Shown one piece after another: positions 1,731 through 34,475 of a DNA stretch of 64,000 nucleotides (position 1 is the stretch's first letter; every line of letters begins with the position of its first letter). This DNA is from Aeriscardovia sp. (GTDB taxonomy: Bacteria; Actinomycetota; Actinomycetes; Actinomycetales; Bifidobacteriaceae), in contig JAFRAT010000011.1 in the NCBI GenBank assembly GCA_017405305.1, positions 1 through 64,000 on the forward strand, read 5' to 3'. Below the pieces are notes generated by a model that did no database searches, was not told where the DNA came from, and worked only from the letters and a program-made list of their open reading frames with translations. Both the position numbers and the translations under genes were made by a program.

Positions 1731-3129
1731 GGTTTTCCTTCGGTTTTCTTTCGAGTTTTCCGCCGAGTCCTTTGTCAAGCCGGCGCAGGATGTAGCTCTG
1801 GTACGGGAGCGCTAGCAGCAGCGCGAGGATATCCGCCAGAGGCTGGGCCACCATCACCCCGGTGAAGCCGAGGAAATGCGGCAGGATCAGCAGGATGGGG
1901 ATAAGAAAGATGCCGCGCCTGCCGGACCCCACGAAACTGGAGATGAACGTGTACCCCAGCGTCTGCGAGAGCATGTTGAAGGTGACGATTACGGTAGTGA
2001 AGGGCAGCGTCAGCGACTGCCAGCGCAGCGCGGGCACGCCGTAGGCCACGACAGCGGGGTTGCTCTGGAACGCGCGGACGATAGGCGCAGCCCAGATGGA
2101 CTGCGCGATGGCAATGGCGCCCAGCACTACGAACGACGCGCGGATGACCAGCCAGTAGCCCTTAGTAACCCTCTTGTAGTTCTTCGCCCCGTAGTTGTAG
2201 CCGCACACGGGCTGGTAGCCTTGGCCGAAGCCGCCGCGGATAGAATTCGACACCGTCACGATGCGGTTGACGATGGTCATGGCCGCAATGGCCGCGTCGC
2301 CGTACGGGTTGGCGGCCAGATCGAGGACGTCCATGCCCAGTGCGCGCATCCAGTTGCGCAGCAGACTCGGCAGGCCGCCGGCGATGATCTGGTGGAACAC
2401 CTCGCTGTCGAGGCGGTAGCGGGACAGGCGGATAGGCACCACGCTGTGGCGGCGGTACAGGCCCAGCAGCAGGCAGAAAGAGATGACCTGGCATACGGCG
2501 GTCGCGGATCCCGCGCCGACCATACCCCAATGCAGCGCGAAGATGAACACTGGTTCCAGGCCGATATTGCTGATGGCGCCCGAGGCCAGGCCGATCATGG
2601 ACTCCTTCGCTAGTCCCTGGAAGCGCAGCAGCGCGTTAAGCACGTACGTGGCGCAGTTGAGCGGCGCGACGATGAGCAGCGGCAGCATATAGGCGATGGC
2701 CAGTGGCGCGATGGTCCTTGTGGAACCGAGGACGACAGCCAGCGGGTCGCGCAGGCAGATGGCTACAGCGGCGATGATAGCGGCGACGAACAGTGTGGTG
2801 AAAAAGCCATTAGAGGCGAGCCGTTCCGCGAAGTCCTGGTTCTTCTTGCCCAGCGCGACGGACATCCGGTTGGCCGAACCCATGCCGAACATCAGACCGA
2901 TGGACTTGAGGATGACAGTCAGGGGCATGACCACGCCTGCGGCGGCCACAGCGGCCGTGCCGACGCAACCCACGTAGAAGGTATCGGTGAGGTTGTAGGT
3001 AACGGTGACGATGTTGGCCACGGTGGACGGCACGGCGAGGCGGACGATGGTGCGCCCCAGCGGGGCCTGGGTCATCTCGTAGAACCGTGCGTCGGCGTCG
3101 TCCGCCCGCGATGCCGTTTTCCGTGCCAT
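1723..3129 (-). CDS. MATE family exporter (second copy)
   Basis: A second MATE transporter of 468 residues, promoter-proximal to the first copy. It shares NLTDTFYVG near the N-terminus, a FQGLAKESMIG loop in the middle and GYQPVCGYNYGAK in the second half. The reading frame is open far upstream to 3447, but that extension is Arg-rich and not transporter-like. The ATG at 3129 has AAGGAGGA directly upstream and gives the family-typical N-terminus that includes FYEMTQAPLG. Its stop overlaps the start of the downstream MATE gene. DNA upstream (3286-4623) holds decayed relatives of the same family, so this locus has been an expanding and contracting MATE array. Confidence 0.9.
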   Translation of the reverse strand: MARKTASRADDADARFYEMTQAPLGRTIVRLAVPSTVANIVTVTYNLTDTFYVGCVGTAAVAAAGVVMPLTVILKSIGLMFGMGSANRMSVALGKKNQDFAERLASNGFFTTLFVAAIIAAVAICLRDPLAVVLGSTRTIAPLAIAYMLPLLIVAPLNCATYVLNALLRFQGLAKESMIGLASGAISNIGLEPVFIFALHWGMVGAGSATAVCQVISFCLLLGLYRRHSVVPIRLSRYRLDSEVFHQIIAGGLPSLLRNWMRALGMDVLDLAANPYGDAAIAAMTIVNRIVTVSNSIRGGFGQGYQPVCGYNYGAKNYKRVTKGYWLVIRASFVVLGAIAIAQSIWAAPIVRAFQSNPAVVAYGVPALRWQSLTLPFTTVIVTFNMLSQTLGYTFISSFVGSGRRGIFLIPILLILPHFLGFTGVMVAQPLADILALLLALPYQSYILRRLDKGLGGKLERKPKENHG

Positions 3130-3285: not shown

Positions 3286-4110
3286 TCCCGTCGTCGCCGT
3301 CCGCTTTCCTGCGTCGTGGCGGTTTCTTTCCCGCCTCCGTGCGCTTTGTCCCGCGCACGATATGTCCCCATAGCGACGGATCCAGCAGAGTGGCGCACAC
3401 GTCGGAGATGAGTCGTGCCAGCGTGATTCCGAGGAGGCCAAACACATGCGGCGGCATCAGCGCCGGCATGAGGGAAGATGTCCTGCTGTCCCAGGTCAAG
3501 CCGAGATGATGGCCGTGGCGTCTGCCATGGCCTCTGTCACGGAAGTGTAGAGGGAGGGGCATGGCGGGAGACTGAAGTTCCGTCATATGTACGGCCGGCG
3601 GGCTGTACGTCACTATCCGCGGTTCGCGCAGGGAGAGGCAGATGAGCCGCAGGACGAAGATTTCCCGCAGTACGCACGCAGGCACGAGGAGCAGGGCGTG
3701 GCGTTTACCCCGGGCCGGTCCTTGGACCATGTGCCGGTAGTTGCTTCTTGCCCTGTGGCTAACCTCGCGCGCAGGCTGGCAGCCCTGCGGACCCCACCTT
3801 ATGCTGACGTTCACGATGCGGCCGGGCGATTGTCATGGCCGCGATGACCGCGAAGCCAGAGGGATTGAAGCCCGTCAGGCACGTCGGTGGTGCCGGACAG
3901 CATGAAATCGCGGGAGAAGCTCGGCACGCCTGTGCTGAACAGGTCGTGGGGGATCTCCTCGTCCGGCCGGAAGGCGTCCCAGCGGAATTGGACCACCGAG
4001 TTCCAGGCGAACAGCGCGACGTTAAGGCCCAGGCCTGGCAGATGCCCGGTGCCATCAAGGAGATAATGGGGTTCGTCGATCAGACCTTGGAAGAGCAAGG
4101 TACGGGTTGA
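3286..4110 (-). pseudogene. Decayed MATE exporter, middle-to-C-terminal part
   Basis: Reading on the minus strand, successive frames recreate MATE segments in the correct order. FQGLIDEPHYLLDGTGHLPG (near 4095) corresponds to FQGLAKESMIGLASGAISN of the intact neighbour. STGVPSFSRDFM (near 3930) matches AGGLPSLLRNWM, and AVIAAMTI (near 3850) matches AAIAAMTIVNR. WGPQGCQPA (near 3780) stands for FGQGYQPVCG. The C-terminal part (3300-3520) reads SLMPALMPPHVFGLLGITLA, like PILLILPHFLGFTGVMVAQ. Frame changes and lost codons separate these pieces, so no functional product is possible. It has its own copy of the YQPV region, distinct from the remnant at 4262-4623. Confidence 0.75.
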
Positions 4111-30659: not shown

Positions 30660-32126
30660 ATGGAACAGAACGAGAGGGAAACGAATCTCCGTCCGCTGCG
30701 CGTCGCTGTGGTGGGCGCTGGCCCCGCCGGAGTGTACGCGTCGGACATCCTGCTGCGGCAGCTCGCCGAGAAAGGCCCGGAACTGGGCATCGGCGAGGAC
30801 GCGAGCATCGATCTCTTCGAGAAGCTTCCGGCGCCTTTCGGTCTTGTGCGCTACGGCGTCGCGCCGGATCACCCGGCCATTAAATGGATCATGAGCGCGC
30901 TGGAGAAGACCATCGACAACCCTCGCATGCGCCTGTTCTGCGGCGTCGAAGTCGGCAAGGCCGTCGCGCTTGACGATTTGCTGCGCCGCTATGACGCGGT
31001 CCTATTCGCCACCGGCGCCATGGACGACCGCCGGCCCGCAATTCCTGGAGCGGACCTGCCGCAGGTCGTGGGCGCCGCGGAATTCGTCAAATGGTACGAC
31101 GGTTACCCGGGCGCCTCGGCTCCTGGCCTGTCGGCGGCATCCGTGGCGGTCATCGGCGGCGGCAACGTGGCGATGGACGTGTCCCGTCTGCTCGTCAAGA
31201 ACCCGGACGATCTGCTGTCCACCGACATCCCTGATGCCGTGCTCGCGGGCCTGAAGGCCAACCGGCTCACCGATTTGCACCTGTTCGTGCGCCGCGGCCC
31301 AGCCCAGGCGAAGTTTTCCGTCCAGGAGCTGCGCGAGCTCGAGAAACTGCGGGGCGTGCGCCTGATGGTCGACGCCGCCGACTTCGACCTCGACGAGGCC
31401 ACCCGCGCCGTCGCCGGCAAGGATAAACTGACGCGCCAGATGCTCGAGGAGCTGGAAGCCATCAAGGTCCTGGCTGACGACATGGATGTGAAATCCGCGG
31501 CCGTCGGCCACGACGTAGACATCAACGGCGATCCGGCTTCGCGCCGCTACCATTTCCACTTCTTCGCCCGTCCCCTCGCCGTGCTGGCCGACGGGATGGG
31601 CGCTGTGAGCGGACTGCGCGTCGAACGCACGACCGTGTCCGCCGACGGCGCGATGAGCGGCACCGGCAGCACGCGGGATACTCCCGTGCAGGCCGTGTAC
31701 CACGCCATCGGCTATCTGCCGGCCCATGCGGCGGGCGCGCCTTACGACGAGGAGACGTCGACTCTGCGCAACCGCGGCGGACGCGTATTCACCGATGCAG
31801 GCGAACCGATGCCGCGCGTCTACGTCACCGGCTGGGCCAAGCGCGGGCCGGTGGGCCTCATCGGCTCCACCAAGGCCGACGCCACCGAGACCATCGCCAA
31901 CCTGCTGCAGGACTGCGCCGCCGCGCCGCGCGCCGGGCGTGCCGACATCGACGCAGACCAGGACTCCATCGTAAAGCTGCTGCGCGCGCGAGGCGTGGCG
32001 TTCACCGGTCTCGACGGCTGGAAGCGGCTTGATGCCTACGAACGCCGTCAAGGTGAGTCCTCTGGCCGTGAGCGCGTCAAGGTCGTCGACGCGGAGCGGA
32101 TGCGGCGGATCAGCGCCGGCTGGTGA
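30660..32126 (+). CDS. fprA: NADPH-ferredoxin reductase, FprA/adrenodoxin-reductase type
   Basis: A 488-residue flavoenzyme transferring electrons between NADP(H) and ferredoxin. The FAD-binding motif VAVVGAGPAGVYASD is at about residues 14-28, followed by the family signature LPAPFGLVRYGVAPDHP. The NADP site is VAVIGGGNVAMDVSRLL, and the C-terminal FAD contact is YVTGWAKRGPVGLIGSTKADA, which is specific to this class. The ATG at 30660 is preceded by GGAG; the frame opens earlier but without homology. Its ferredoxin partner is not in the window. Confidence 0.95.
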   Translation: MEQNERETNLRPLRVAVVGAGPAGVYASDILLRQLAEKGPELGIGEDASIDLFEKLPAPFGLVRYGVAPDHPAIKWIMSALEKTIDNPRMRLFCGVEVGKAVALDDLLRRYDAVLFATGAMDDRRPAIPGADLPQVVGAAEFVKWYDGYPGASAPGLSAASVAVIGGGNVAMDVSRLLVKNPDDLLSTDIPDAVLAGLKANRLTDLHLFVRRGPAQAKFSVQELRELEKLRGVRLMVDAADFDLDEATRAVAGKDKLTRQMLEELEAIKVLADDMDVKSAAVGHDVDINGDPASRRYHFHFFARPLAVLADGMGAVSGLRVERTTVSADGAMSGTGSTRDTPVQAVYHAIGYLPAHAAGAPYDEETSTLRNRGGRVFTDAGEPMPRVYVTGWAKRGPVGLIGSTKADATETIANLLQDCAAAPRAGRADIDADQDSIVKLLRARGVAFTGLDGWKRLDAYERRQGESSGRERVKVVDAERMRRISAGW

Positions 32127-32290
32127 GAGACTGGCGCGCGATCAGCGCGTGGCATTGACTTGGAGTTCGGCGCTGCGGCCGTCATGGCCCGGGCGGTCGT
32201 CGGATGGTTCCGGATCGGCGCGGTCGCGCCGGTTTCGGATGGAACCGGTTCGGCGCGCAACGGGCTCTCGTGTCGACGGCGCAGATCTGC

Positions 32291-32296
32291 TATAAT
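32291..32296 (+). promoter_or_regulatory. -10 box of the tRNA-Gly promoter
   Basis: A perfect TATAAT lies 26 bases before the mature tRNA end. No convincing -35 is seen upstream, which is common for strong tRNA promoters in high-GC genomes. Confidence 0.55.
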
Positions 32297-32321
32297 GCAA
32301 GAGCATGATTTCCGAGCAATC

Positions 32322-32392
32322 GCGGACGTAGTTCATCGGTAGAACGGGAGCTTCCCAAGCTCCAGAGGCGGGTTCGATTCCCGTCGTCCGCT
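32322..32392 (+). tRNA. tRNA-Gly (anticodon CCC)
   Basis: A complete cloverleaf: acceptor GCGGACG with CGTCCGC, D-arm GTTC-ATCGGTA-GAAC, anticodon stem GGAGC/GCTCC with loop TTCCCAA (anticodon CCC), and a T-arm with GGTTCGATTCC. The discriminator base is T, as expected for glycine tRNAs. CCA is not encoded. It is 71 bases long. A pyrimidine-rich tract follows (ttctttcttcttctg), consistent with termination. Confidence 0.96.
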
Positions 32393-32447
32393 CTTCTTTC
32401 TTCTTCTGTTTGCTCGCGAACCGGTCGATTCCGATGCTGGCCGCTGT

Positions 32448-32458
32448 CCCCCCCCCCC
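32448..32458 (+). repeat. Homopolymeric C tract (11 C) in the leader of the RAMA protein gene
   Basis: Eleven consecutive C bases end 15 bases before the ATG at 32474. It is by far the longest mononucleotide run in the window. It lies between tRNA-Gly and the candidate nuclease gene, where slippage would change promoter or leader spacing. No good Shine-Dalgarno site is seen between tract and start. Confidence 0.8.
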
Positions 32459-32473
32459 AGTTAGAGTAGCCGC

Positions 32474-33631
32474 ATGAGCGAACGAGACGTAGCTGTTGAT
32501 GTGTCTGTCATCAGCGATGCTATTGATAAGATCGGGAATAGGCTTCGTACGCAAAGGGAAGCCGCCGACAACGAAGAAACGACGAAAACGGCTTTCATCC
32601 TTCCGTTCCTGCGTGATGTGCTTGGTTATAACGTCGAGGATCCGTTTGAGGTGAAGCCGGAGTACACGGCTGATATCGGTGGCAGCAAGGGCGAGAAGGT
32701 TGACTACGCTATTTGCAATGACGATTCGGAGCATACTCCGCGCATCCTGATCGAATGCAAAAAACTGGGCGCTGATTTAACGCAGGAAAACACCAAACAG
32801 CTGTGGCGGTATTTCGGCACGTTGCCCGATGCTCATTTCGGTATTTTGACCAACGGCCAGCTCTGGCAGTTCTATACCGATATGGACAACGACAACATGA
32901 TGGACAACGAGCCGTATGCCGTTCTCAACGTTCTCAGTCCCGACTCCGACGCCATCGTTTTACTGCAGGACATAACGAAAAAGGGATTCAATTCCGGTAA
33001 AGCGCGCGAGGATGCCGAACGCTACCGCAAGATGAAGCGGATTCGTGAGCGCATCGACAAAGAATTCTTGGAACCGTCTCGTGATTTCGTGCTGCTTCTT
33101 ACCAAGGAGCTGGTGAAAGGCAAGTTCACACACAAGGTCGAGGCCAAATACAGGCTGCTCGTCGAGGATGCGTTGAAGGAATACATCAACCAGCGCATCA
33201 AAAACCGGTTGGAGAAGGCGGCAATGGATGAGGAAGGCTCCGATTCCCAGCAGCGTGGCGCAGGGGAGAGCGACGATGCCGCGGCGGTGGGAACAGGAAC
33301 CGCGGAACCGGGGGAGGCGGAACAAGAACAGCCGAAGAGGAAGCGTCGCGATTCATCGGTAAAGATACAGGATCTGGTGAATGCTGGTTTGCTTCATGAC
33401 GGCGATAAATTGATTTGCGCTACCGTGCGCGGCCAGTACCAGGACGTGGTTGCCACGATTCGCGGCGATGGAGGGATCGAAATCGAGGGACAGCCGTACT
33501 ACTCGCCTAGCAAGGCGGAGGCGATCGTTAGGGGCCACTCCCGCGATGGTTGGACATTCTGGAGGTTGCCCGATGGCAGGACGCTGGCGGAGGTGCGCGC
33601 TGCCATGGACCAGGATGCGGTCCATGGTTGA
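32474..33631 (+). CDS. PD-(D/E)XK-like (HsdR N-terminal) nuclease domain protein with C-terminal RAMA domain
   Basis: A 385-residue protein. Residues about 10-170 resemble the N-terminal nuclease domain of type I restriction HsdR subunits: an acidic Asp78 in KVDYAI, then ILIECKKLG with Glu94 and Lys96 (E-x-K), and QLWRYF with Gln109 in the QxxxY-like position. A helical region (175-250) and an acidic linker follow. Residues about 295-378 match the RAMA (restriction-system adenine-methylase-associated) pattern: IQDLVNAGLLHDGDKL, YYSPSKAEAIVRG, DGWTFWRL and LAEVR. No methylase, specificity or helicase gene accompanies it. It may be a standalone DNA-modification-sensing nuclease or a defence accessory; no activity is proven. 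Codon use is less GC-biased than in its neighbours, suggesting acquisition beside the tRNA. Confidence 0.75.
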   Translation: MSERDVAVDVSVISDAIDKIGNRLRTQREAADNEETTKTAFILPFLRDVLGYNVEDPFEVKPEYTADIGGSKGEKVDYAICNDDSEHTPRILIECKKLGADLTQENTKQLWRYFGTLPDAHFGILTNGQLWQFYTDMDNDNMMDNEPYAVLNVLSPDSDAIVLLQDITKKGFNSGKAREDAERYRKMKRIRERIDKEFLEPSRDFVLLLTKELVKGKFTHKVEAKYRLLVEDALKEYINQRIKNRLEKAAMDEEGSDSQQRGAGESDDAAAVGTGTAEPGEAEQEQPKRKRRDSSVKIQDLVNAGLLHDGDKLICATVRGQYQDVVATIRGDGGIEIEGQPYYSPSKAEAIVRGHSRDGWTFWRLPDGRTLAEVRAAMDQDAVHG

Positions 33632-33836
33632 ACACGGCGGATCCCGTCCGTCGACCGAGGACCTTCGGCCATAGGCATCCGGGAACGCGTTGTCGCGGCC
33701 GCCTCCGGAAAACCGGCCGTAGAGGTCTCGGCTTCTTTTCCCGCAGGTCCGCTCCGATTGCTTTCGCCGCGTGTCGTCGGATAAGCTGGGATAGCCGCCG
33801 CCTGCGCGGTTCCGGCGGCTCAACGAGGAGAATCCC

Positions 33837-34475
33837 ATGGAAAACCAGACTGCGGAAAACCAAGCTGTGGAAAAATCCGTTCCGGCCGTGAAACTGTCCT
33901 ACGAGGACGCTTGGAAGCTGCTGACCGAATACACGAAGGGCGCTGCGTTGCGCGTCCACGCGCGTCAGGTGCAGTCCTGCATGGCGTGGTTTGGCGAACA
34001 TTTCGGCGGCGATCCGGAGGTATGGGGCGTAGCCGGCATGTTGCACGACCTCGACTACGAGATGTACCCGGATCAGCATTGCGCGATGTCGAAGCGGATC
34101 ATGGAGGAGCGCGGTGTCGACCCGATGTACGTCCATGCCATGCTTTGCCACGAGCCAAAACTGACGGGCGAAGAGCCGAGTACCCTGCTCGAGAAAACGC
34201 TCTACACCGTCGACGAGCTCAGCGGCCTCATCAACGCCGCCTGCCTGATGTACCCGTCGAAGTCGATCTTCGACGCGAACGTCAGGTCCATCAAGAAGAA
34301 GTTCAAAAATAAAAAGTTCGCCGCGAAAATCGACCGCGGGCACATTTCCGACGGCTGCGAGCGCATGGGCTGGGACTTGTCCGACGTCATTGACGGCTGC
34401 ATCCGGGGTATGCAGGCCAACGCGGAGCAGTGCGGCCTCGTCGGCGATCACAGGGAAGGCGATCGGCAAGAGTGA
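33837..34475 (+). CDS. HD-domain phosphohydrolase-like protein
   Basis: A 212-residue cytoplasmic protein with an HD-superfamily metal site: His41 (RVHARQV), then His70-Asp71 (GMLHDLDYE) and a later His-rich helix, MYVHAMLCHEPKL. It resembles predicted hydrolases of the HDIG type found across Firmicutes and actinobacteria, probably acting on a nucleotide or small phosphate ester; the substrate is unknown. AGGAG is well placed before the ATG. The C-terminus has Lys-rich KKKFKNKKFAAK. Confidence 0.85.
   Translation: MENQTAENQAVEKSVPAVKLSYEDAWKLLTEYTKGAALRVHARQVQSCMAWFGEHFGGDPEVWGVAGMLHDLDYEMYPDQHCAMSKRIMEERGVDPMYVHAMLCHEPKLTGEEPSTLLEKTLYTVDELSGLINAACLMYPSKSIFDANVRSIKKKFKNKKFAAKIDRGHISDGCERMGWDLSDVIDGCIRGMQANAEQCGLVGDHREGDRQE

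Follow-up and report, generated by a model that had tools for sequence, protein, structure and literature searches.

In this study, we analysed a stretch of 64,000 nt from Aeriscardovia sp. (hereafter the window) and found that a run of eleven C, 15 nt before a stand-alone nuclease gene, can plausibly be proposed as a promoter-spacer contingency locus, in which the length of the tract would set transcription of the nuclease; we put the probability of this reading at about 0.5. The genome is that of a small member of the Bifidobacteriaceae (1.1 Mb, 20 contigs), near Aeriscardovia sp. RGIG6. The features on which the argument turns are the following.

32291-32296, + strand: TATAAT, probable -10 box of the tRNA-Gly gene, identical in the sister genome
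32322-32393, + strand: tRNA-Gly (CCC), by ARAGORN and Rfam (RF00005)
32434-32469, + strand: possible leader ORF of 11 codons (MLAAVPPPQLE, stop) that spans the tract and stops 4 nt short of the nuclease ATG
32437-32442, + strand: CTGGCC, weak -35 candidate, 3/6 to TTGACA, 19-nt spacer, not conserved in the sister
32448-32458, + strand: C11 homopolymer, seen in the sequence, 3 nt upstream of the -10 box
32462-32467, + strand: TAGAGT, -10 box of a putative leaderless promoter, 6 nt before the ATG, of the TAnnnT form enriched 6-7 nt before the starts of this genome
32474-33631, + strand: stand-alone nuclease gene, HSDR_N with C-terminal RAMA, 385 aa, Pfam PF04313, PF13588 and PF18755 above cut-offs

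Length of the C tract against the genomic background

The original prediction had described eleven C lying 15 bases before a start codon, and this is what the sequence holds: the tract at 32448-32458 is followed by 15 nt (AGTTAGAGTAGCCGC) and then by the ATG at 32474 of the 385-aa ORF. It had also called the tract the longest mononucleotide run in the window, which our counts bear out, since the only other C/G runs of at least 6 are three of exactly 6, and A/T runs reach no more than 7. In 64-kb sequences simulated under Markov models (200 trials per order), a C/G run of at least 11 arose in 30.5% of trials at order 0, 6% at order 1, 0.5% at orders 2 and 3 and 0% at order 4; the 5.5% obtained at order 5 comes from a model that has memorised the tract itself. 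Across 464 kb of the genome, C/G runs numbered 230, 14, 3 and 3 at lengths 5, 6, 7 and 8, then 5, 2 and 2 at lengths 9, 10 and 11, and no A/T run of at least 9 was present. This steep fall followed by a flat tail indicates that a length of eleven is not a matter of chance for this genome. Codon shuffling within the heuristically called genes predicted 94 C/G runs of 6 against 7 seen, and about 1.8 runs of at least 9 against 3 seen, so that short runs are avoided and long ones stand apart. The tract thus exceeds the background length, one of the marks of a promoter-spacer contingency locus. It is not unique, being one of 21 C/G runs of at least 9 in the genome (one of 12, four of 11, seven of 10 and nine of 9).

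The nuclease gene and its product

The gene order is an oxidoreductase gene (Pyr_redox_2; presumably FprA-like), tRNA-Gly(CCC), the nuclease gene and an HD-domain gene. By Pfam, the nuclease carries HSDR_N (PF04313, PF13588) at roughly residues 43-140 and RAMA (PF18755) at residues 281-378, which agrees with the restriction-type gene predicted originally. Its D..ExK residues are kept in an alignment of 12 Bifidobacteriaceae homologues, and together with the profile score above cut-off they place the protein in the HSDR_N family. The first part of the protein is common to all 12, while their C-terminus is different from that of the window protein, and the one homologue scanned by Pfam gave no RAMA. 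A search of PDB sequences returned a sole match, CcrM, to the RAMA part; the best-scoring PADLOC matches (PDC-S14, PtuB) likewise covered the RAMA part only and named no system.

We rejected a type I restriction enzyme, because the 385-aa protein gave no match to a helicase domain and the flanking genes include no methylase (HsdM) or specificity (HsdS) gene. Fusion of a nuclease to a putative modification reader, as in this HSDR_N-RAMA protein, is the structural mark of type IV restriction. RAMA has been suggested, although this is disputed, to read N6-methyladenine (PMC11037411), and the fusion together with this suggested function makes a methyl-dependent, type IV-like nuclease likely.

A putative leaderless promoter next to the tract

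As the original prediction had noted, no Shine-Dalgarno site is seen between the tract and the ATG at 32474, probably because the gene is leaderless. Among 310 heuristically called genes in 464 kb, whose start positions are themselves heuristic, the motif TAnnnT lay upstream of candidate starts 18 times at 6 nt and 13 times at 7 nt, against about 3 times at most other distances, with one exception of 13 at distance 33. It preceded 31 of 736 near-start ATG/GTG codons, the nuclease gene among them, against 39 of 6567 such codons deep in genes (Fisher p 1e-13). We read the peak at 6-7 nt as the mark of leaderless mRNAs, which make up 15% of transcription start sites in B. pseudolongum (PMC4782308). 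With TAGAGT 6 nt before its start codon and no Shine-Dalgarno site, the nuclease gene has the features of this class; it is probably leaderless, with transcription starting at the A of ATG 32474. The tract would then lie outside any leader and just ahead of the -10 box, filling the spacer.

The original prediction had put the tract in the leader or promoter of the gene and had its length act on -10 to -35 or Shine-Dalgarno spacing. Placement in the promoter region stands; the leader part probably falls away, as the -10 box follows the tract in a probably leaderless gene, and with it Shine-Dalgarno spacing, so that any effect would be on transcription.

The two ends of this putative spacer differ in quality: the -10 box is well supported, and the -35 candidate (CTGGCC, 3/6) is unconvincing. 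A scan for sigma-70 consensus promoters and terminators returned no promoter at 32200-32600 and no terminator after the tRNA, and an Rfam scan of 32100-33900 found the tRNA only. No conserved -35 was apparent in the 30 other leaderless candidates of the genome, so that an effect of spacer length is not assured. In those 30 candidates, GGA tends to follow TAnnnT (G in 24/30, G in 20/30 and A in 16/30 at the successive positions); the nuclease gene lacks this usual GGA after its -10 box.

The tract also runs through the possible leader ORF at 32434-32469, which is probably not translated because it has no Shine-Dalgarno site. With 6 to 15 C, this ORF would stop at one of three places relative to the first base of the nuclease ATG, 9 nt or 4 nt ahead of it or 4 nt beyond it, and an in-frame TAG at 32462-32464 stands between the tract and that ATG. 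The tract cannot act by frameshifting the nuclease.

Comparison with the sister species and with homologous loci

The sister genome, Aeriscardovia sp. RGIG6 from cattle abomasum, has 6 C at the site of the tract against 11 in the window, so that tract length differs between lineages on this one comparison. The 26 nt flanking the tract are identical at 17/26 positions; by comparison, identity is 42/43 in the sequence immediately before them and 84/90 where the coding sequence begins. The stretch around the tract therefore looks like a local hot spot of change, a pattern which fits slippage and also fits relaxed constraint. The -10 box is affected too, reading TAGAGT in the window and TGGAAT in the sister, where the key A is lost. 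In addition, the sister counterpart of ATG 32434 is in frame with the nuclease through its 6 C and gives an open frame of 435 aa, which keeps a leader-ORF form of control among the rival explanations.

The third genome of the genus lacks the nuclease, and an HD-like gene stands right behind its tRNA; this points either to insertion in the lineage of the window genome and its sister or to loss in the third genome. The HD-domain gene behind tRNA-Gly in that genome (L088, about 3440-4030, minus strand) contains several in-frame stops, which fall where the HD protein of the window has W, Y or F; it may be a decayed gene, or the stops may be assembly errors.

Among 17 homologous loci examined in the family, two carry a C10 and a C9 tract at the 5' end of the coding sequence, with the ORF split in both. 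These belong to distant HSDR_N genes (L048 and L049, in G177 and G182) of another genus with genomes of about 0.8-0.9 Mb, and one of the two keeps an internal in-frame ATG before the tract. Their positions correspond to about residue 26-31 of the window protein, and the two tracts therefore arose independently of the one in the window.

Other long tracts and mismatch repair

We examined the contexts of all 21 long tracts, with Pfam applied to 30 flanking ORFs. Four of the 21 lie at restriction-type genes, namely the window nuclease, an MmeI-type gene, a type III mod gene and a type ISP-like gene. The MmeI-type gene (L066, G000:C11:189609-195619) is divided between two reading frames at an 11-base G tract (3001-3011): one frame encodes the MmeI N-terminal and spacer domains, the other the methylase, target-recognition and C-terminal domains. 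It is a strong candidate for an intragenic phase-variable restriction-modification gene. No MmeI-type gene was found in the other two genomes of the genus, in a search that had no positive control. In the mod-type methylase gene (L074, L120:11302-16271), a 10-G tract lies in frame about 40 codons in, a type III Res gene comes after the mod gene, and across the tract the corresponding sister gene is 2 nt shorter; this pair is a candidate phasevarion. The type ISP-like protein (L069) has a 9-base tract, in frame. Two further tracts lie at the 5' ends of surface-related genes, a pilin-like (SpaA) gene (L067, tract 3001-3011) and a surface-repeat protein gene (L073, tract 3001-3010), each with its upstream start out of frame. 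For the remaining 15, no restriction or surface gene was assigned, and since Pfam was limited to 30 flanking ORFs they may hide more genes. The genome context thus favours slippage-controlled genes with restriction genes among them, in line with the original remark that these are frequent phase-variation targets. Against the 21 runs of at least 9 here, the sister MAG has 4 and the third genome one, so that the tracts are not widely kept.

Searches with positive controls in named genomes showed that MutS_V is absent from this genome and NucS is present. Mycobacterial NucS does not repair indels of 1-2 bp (PMC11551767), and we infer by analogy that this blindness may extend to the present genus. 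With MutS absent and NucS blind to such indels, slippage products should persist.

What the tract may do

If the tract is a promoter-spacer contingency locus, RNA polymerase would recognise TAGAGT and, judging from its position, start at the A of the nuclease ATG, and the C tract would occupy the DNA between the -10 box and the contact region of the sigma domain that binds the -35. Replication slippage would add or remove C, to be left unrepaired because MutS is absent, and each gain or loss would change promoter geometry and thereby the amount of nuclease, as for HPT_37 and opc/porA. This reading draws on the TAnnnT enrichment, the missing Shine-Dalgarno site, a run length outside the background, the 4 of 21 tracts at restriction-type genes, the 6 C of the sister, the tracts in 2 of 17 homologous loci, the absence of MutS_V and the layout that the locus would share with HPT_37. 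It is weakened by the failure of the sigma-70 scan to find a match, the lack of a conserved -35, the TGGAAT of the sister, the absent GGA, the few tracts in the two other genomes and the slow, clade-bound behaviour of tracts in C. acnes. The phase-variable switch first proposed is partly supported: the tract, its promoter placement, the restriction-type gene and the missing Shine-Dalgarno site are retained, and the sister adds a difference in length; the route through Shine-Dalgarno spacing is not retained.

Some of the same facts would also suit a tract that is prone to slippage and idle, having lengthened in the short space between two genes because indels go unrepaired, with nuclease expression independent of its length. 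The absence of MutS, the lack of a conserved -35 in this class of promoters, the 15 of 21 long runs without an assigned restriction or surface gene, and the finding that C. acnes tracts change slowly and in step with clades (PMC4746626) all point that way. We nevertheless consider an idle tract rather unlikely, given that the C11 run sits only 3 nt from the -10 box, that 4 of the 21 tract sites are restriction-type genes and that two distant homologues acquired tracts independently. Control through the leader ORF is more doubtful still. Here, read-through from tRNA-Gly would allow translation from ATG 32434 through the tract, whose length would set the position of the stop relative to the nuclease ATG and thereby tune reinitiation, the in-frame N-terminal extension of the sister being the ancestral state. 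The 435-aa open frame of the sister, the three stop positions offered by the three frames (+4, -4 and -9 nt from the nuclease ATG) and the lack of a terminator after the tRNA in our scan are consistent with it, but ATG 32434 has no Shine-Dalgarno site, the leader ORF is not fused to the window nuclease at any tract length, and the homologues, which begin at or close to the start of the window protein, have no extension of this kind. As for a classical intragenic frameshift switch, the pattern is seen in the MmeI-type gene and in the two distant homologues; in the window gene the in-frame TAG, and the failure of any length from 6 to 15 C to produce a fusion, exclude it, and we give it hardly any credence.

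Should tract length set nuclease transcription, slippage-controlled restriction would extend from well-studied pathogens to a reduced, host-associated relative of the bifidobacteria, and leaderless promoters would be places where a homopolymer can control expression without an untranslated leader. The MmeI-type, type III mod, pilin, surface-protein and HSDR_N-RAMA nuclease genes could be tested jointly. A far more speculative extension, which we regard as a long shot, is a coupled contingency set in which slippage switches the methylases (MmeI-type and type III Mod) and tunes a methyl-reading nuclease. In that case, cells that gain a methylation mark at random would have to hold the nuclease low, the nuclease would punish phages and plasmids bearing the marks of sibling cells, and restriction and anti-self control would be sorted by tract length within a small host-associated genome.

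Comparison with known systems

Promoter-spacer tracts are known from the opc and porA promoters of Neisseria meningitidis, where a homopolymer in the spacer between -35 and -10 sets promoter strength. Those genes encode surface proteins with ordinary leaders and their switching is proven; the tract in the window is a candidate. A promoter-spacer C tract is thus of a known kind; our literature searches turned up no report of one at a stand-alone HSDR_N-RAMA nuclease, nor any paper on phase variation in Aeriscardovia. Within the same bacterial family, the sortase-dependent pili of Bifidobacterium breve UCC2003 vary by replication slippage at G tracts, proven in one strain (PMC9187656); this resembles the window in the use of G/C tracts but concerns an intragenic frameshift in pilus genes, not the promoter of a nuclease (PMC9187656). 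For the protein, the closest known parallel is a set of endonucleases fused to winged-helix and RAMA domains, which have been proposed as 6mA-dependent type IV restriction enzymes (PMC11037411). They share with the window protein a nuclease domain joined to RAMA as a suggested methyl-adenine reader, although the RAMA fusions described there are to Mrr-type or GIY-YIG nucleases and the putative fusion in the window is to HSDR_N (PMC11037411).

The closest precedent for the tract is HPT_37 upstream of PPA1943 in Cutibacterium (Propionibacterium) acnes, also an actinobacterium, where a C tract separates the -10 from the -35 in a leaderless promoter (PMC4746626), the layout proposed for the window. 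It differs in that the gene is a putative quinone biosynthesis gene, the tract is shorter, and the transcription start was measured there and is deduced from position for the window nuclease (PMC4746626). At HPT_37, a difference of 5 versus 7 C between lineages goes with a 2-fold difference in expression (PMC4746626).
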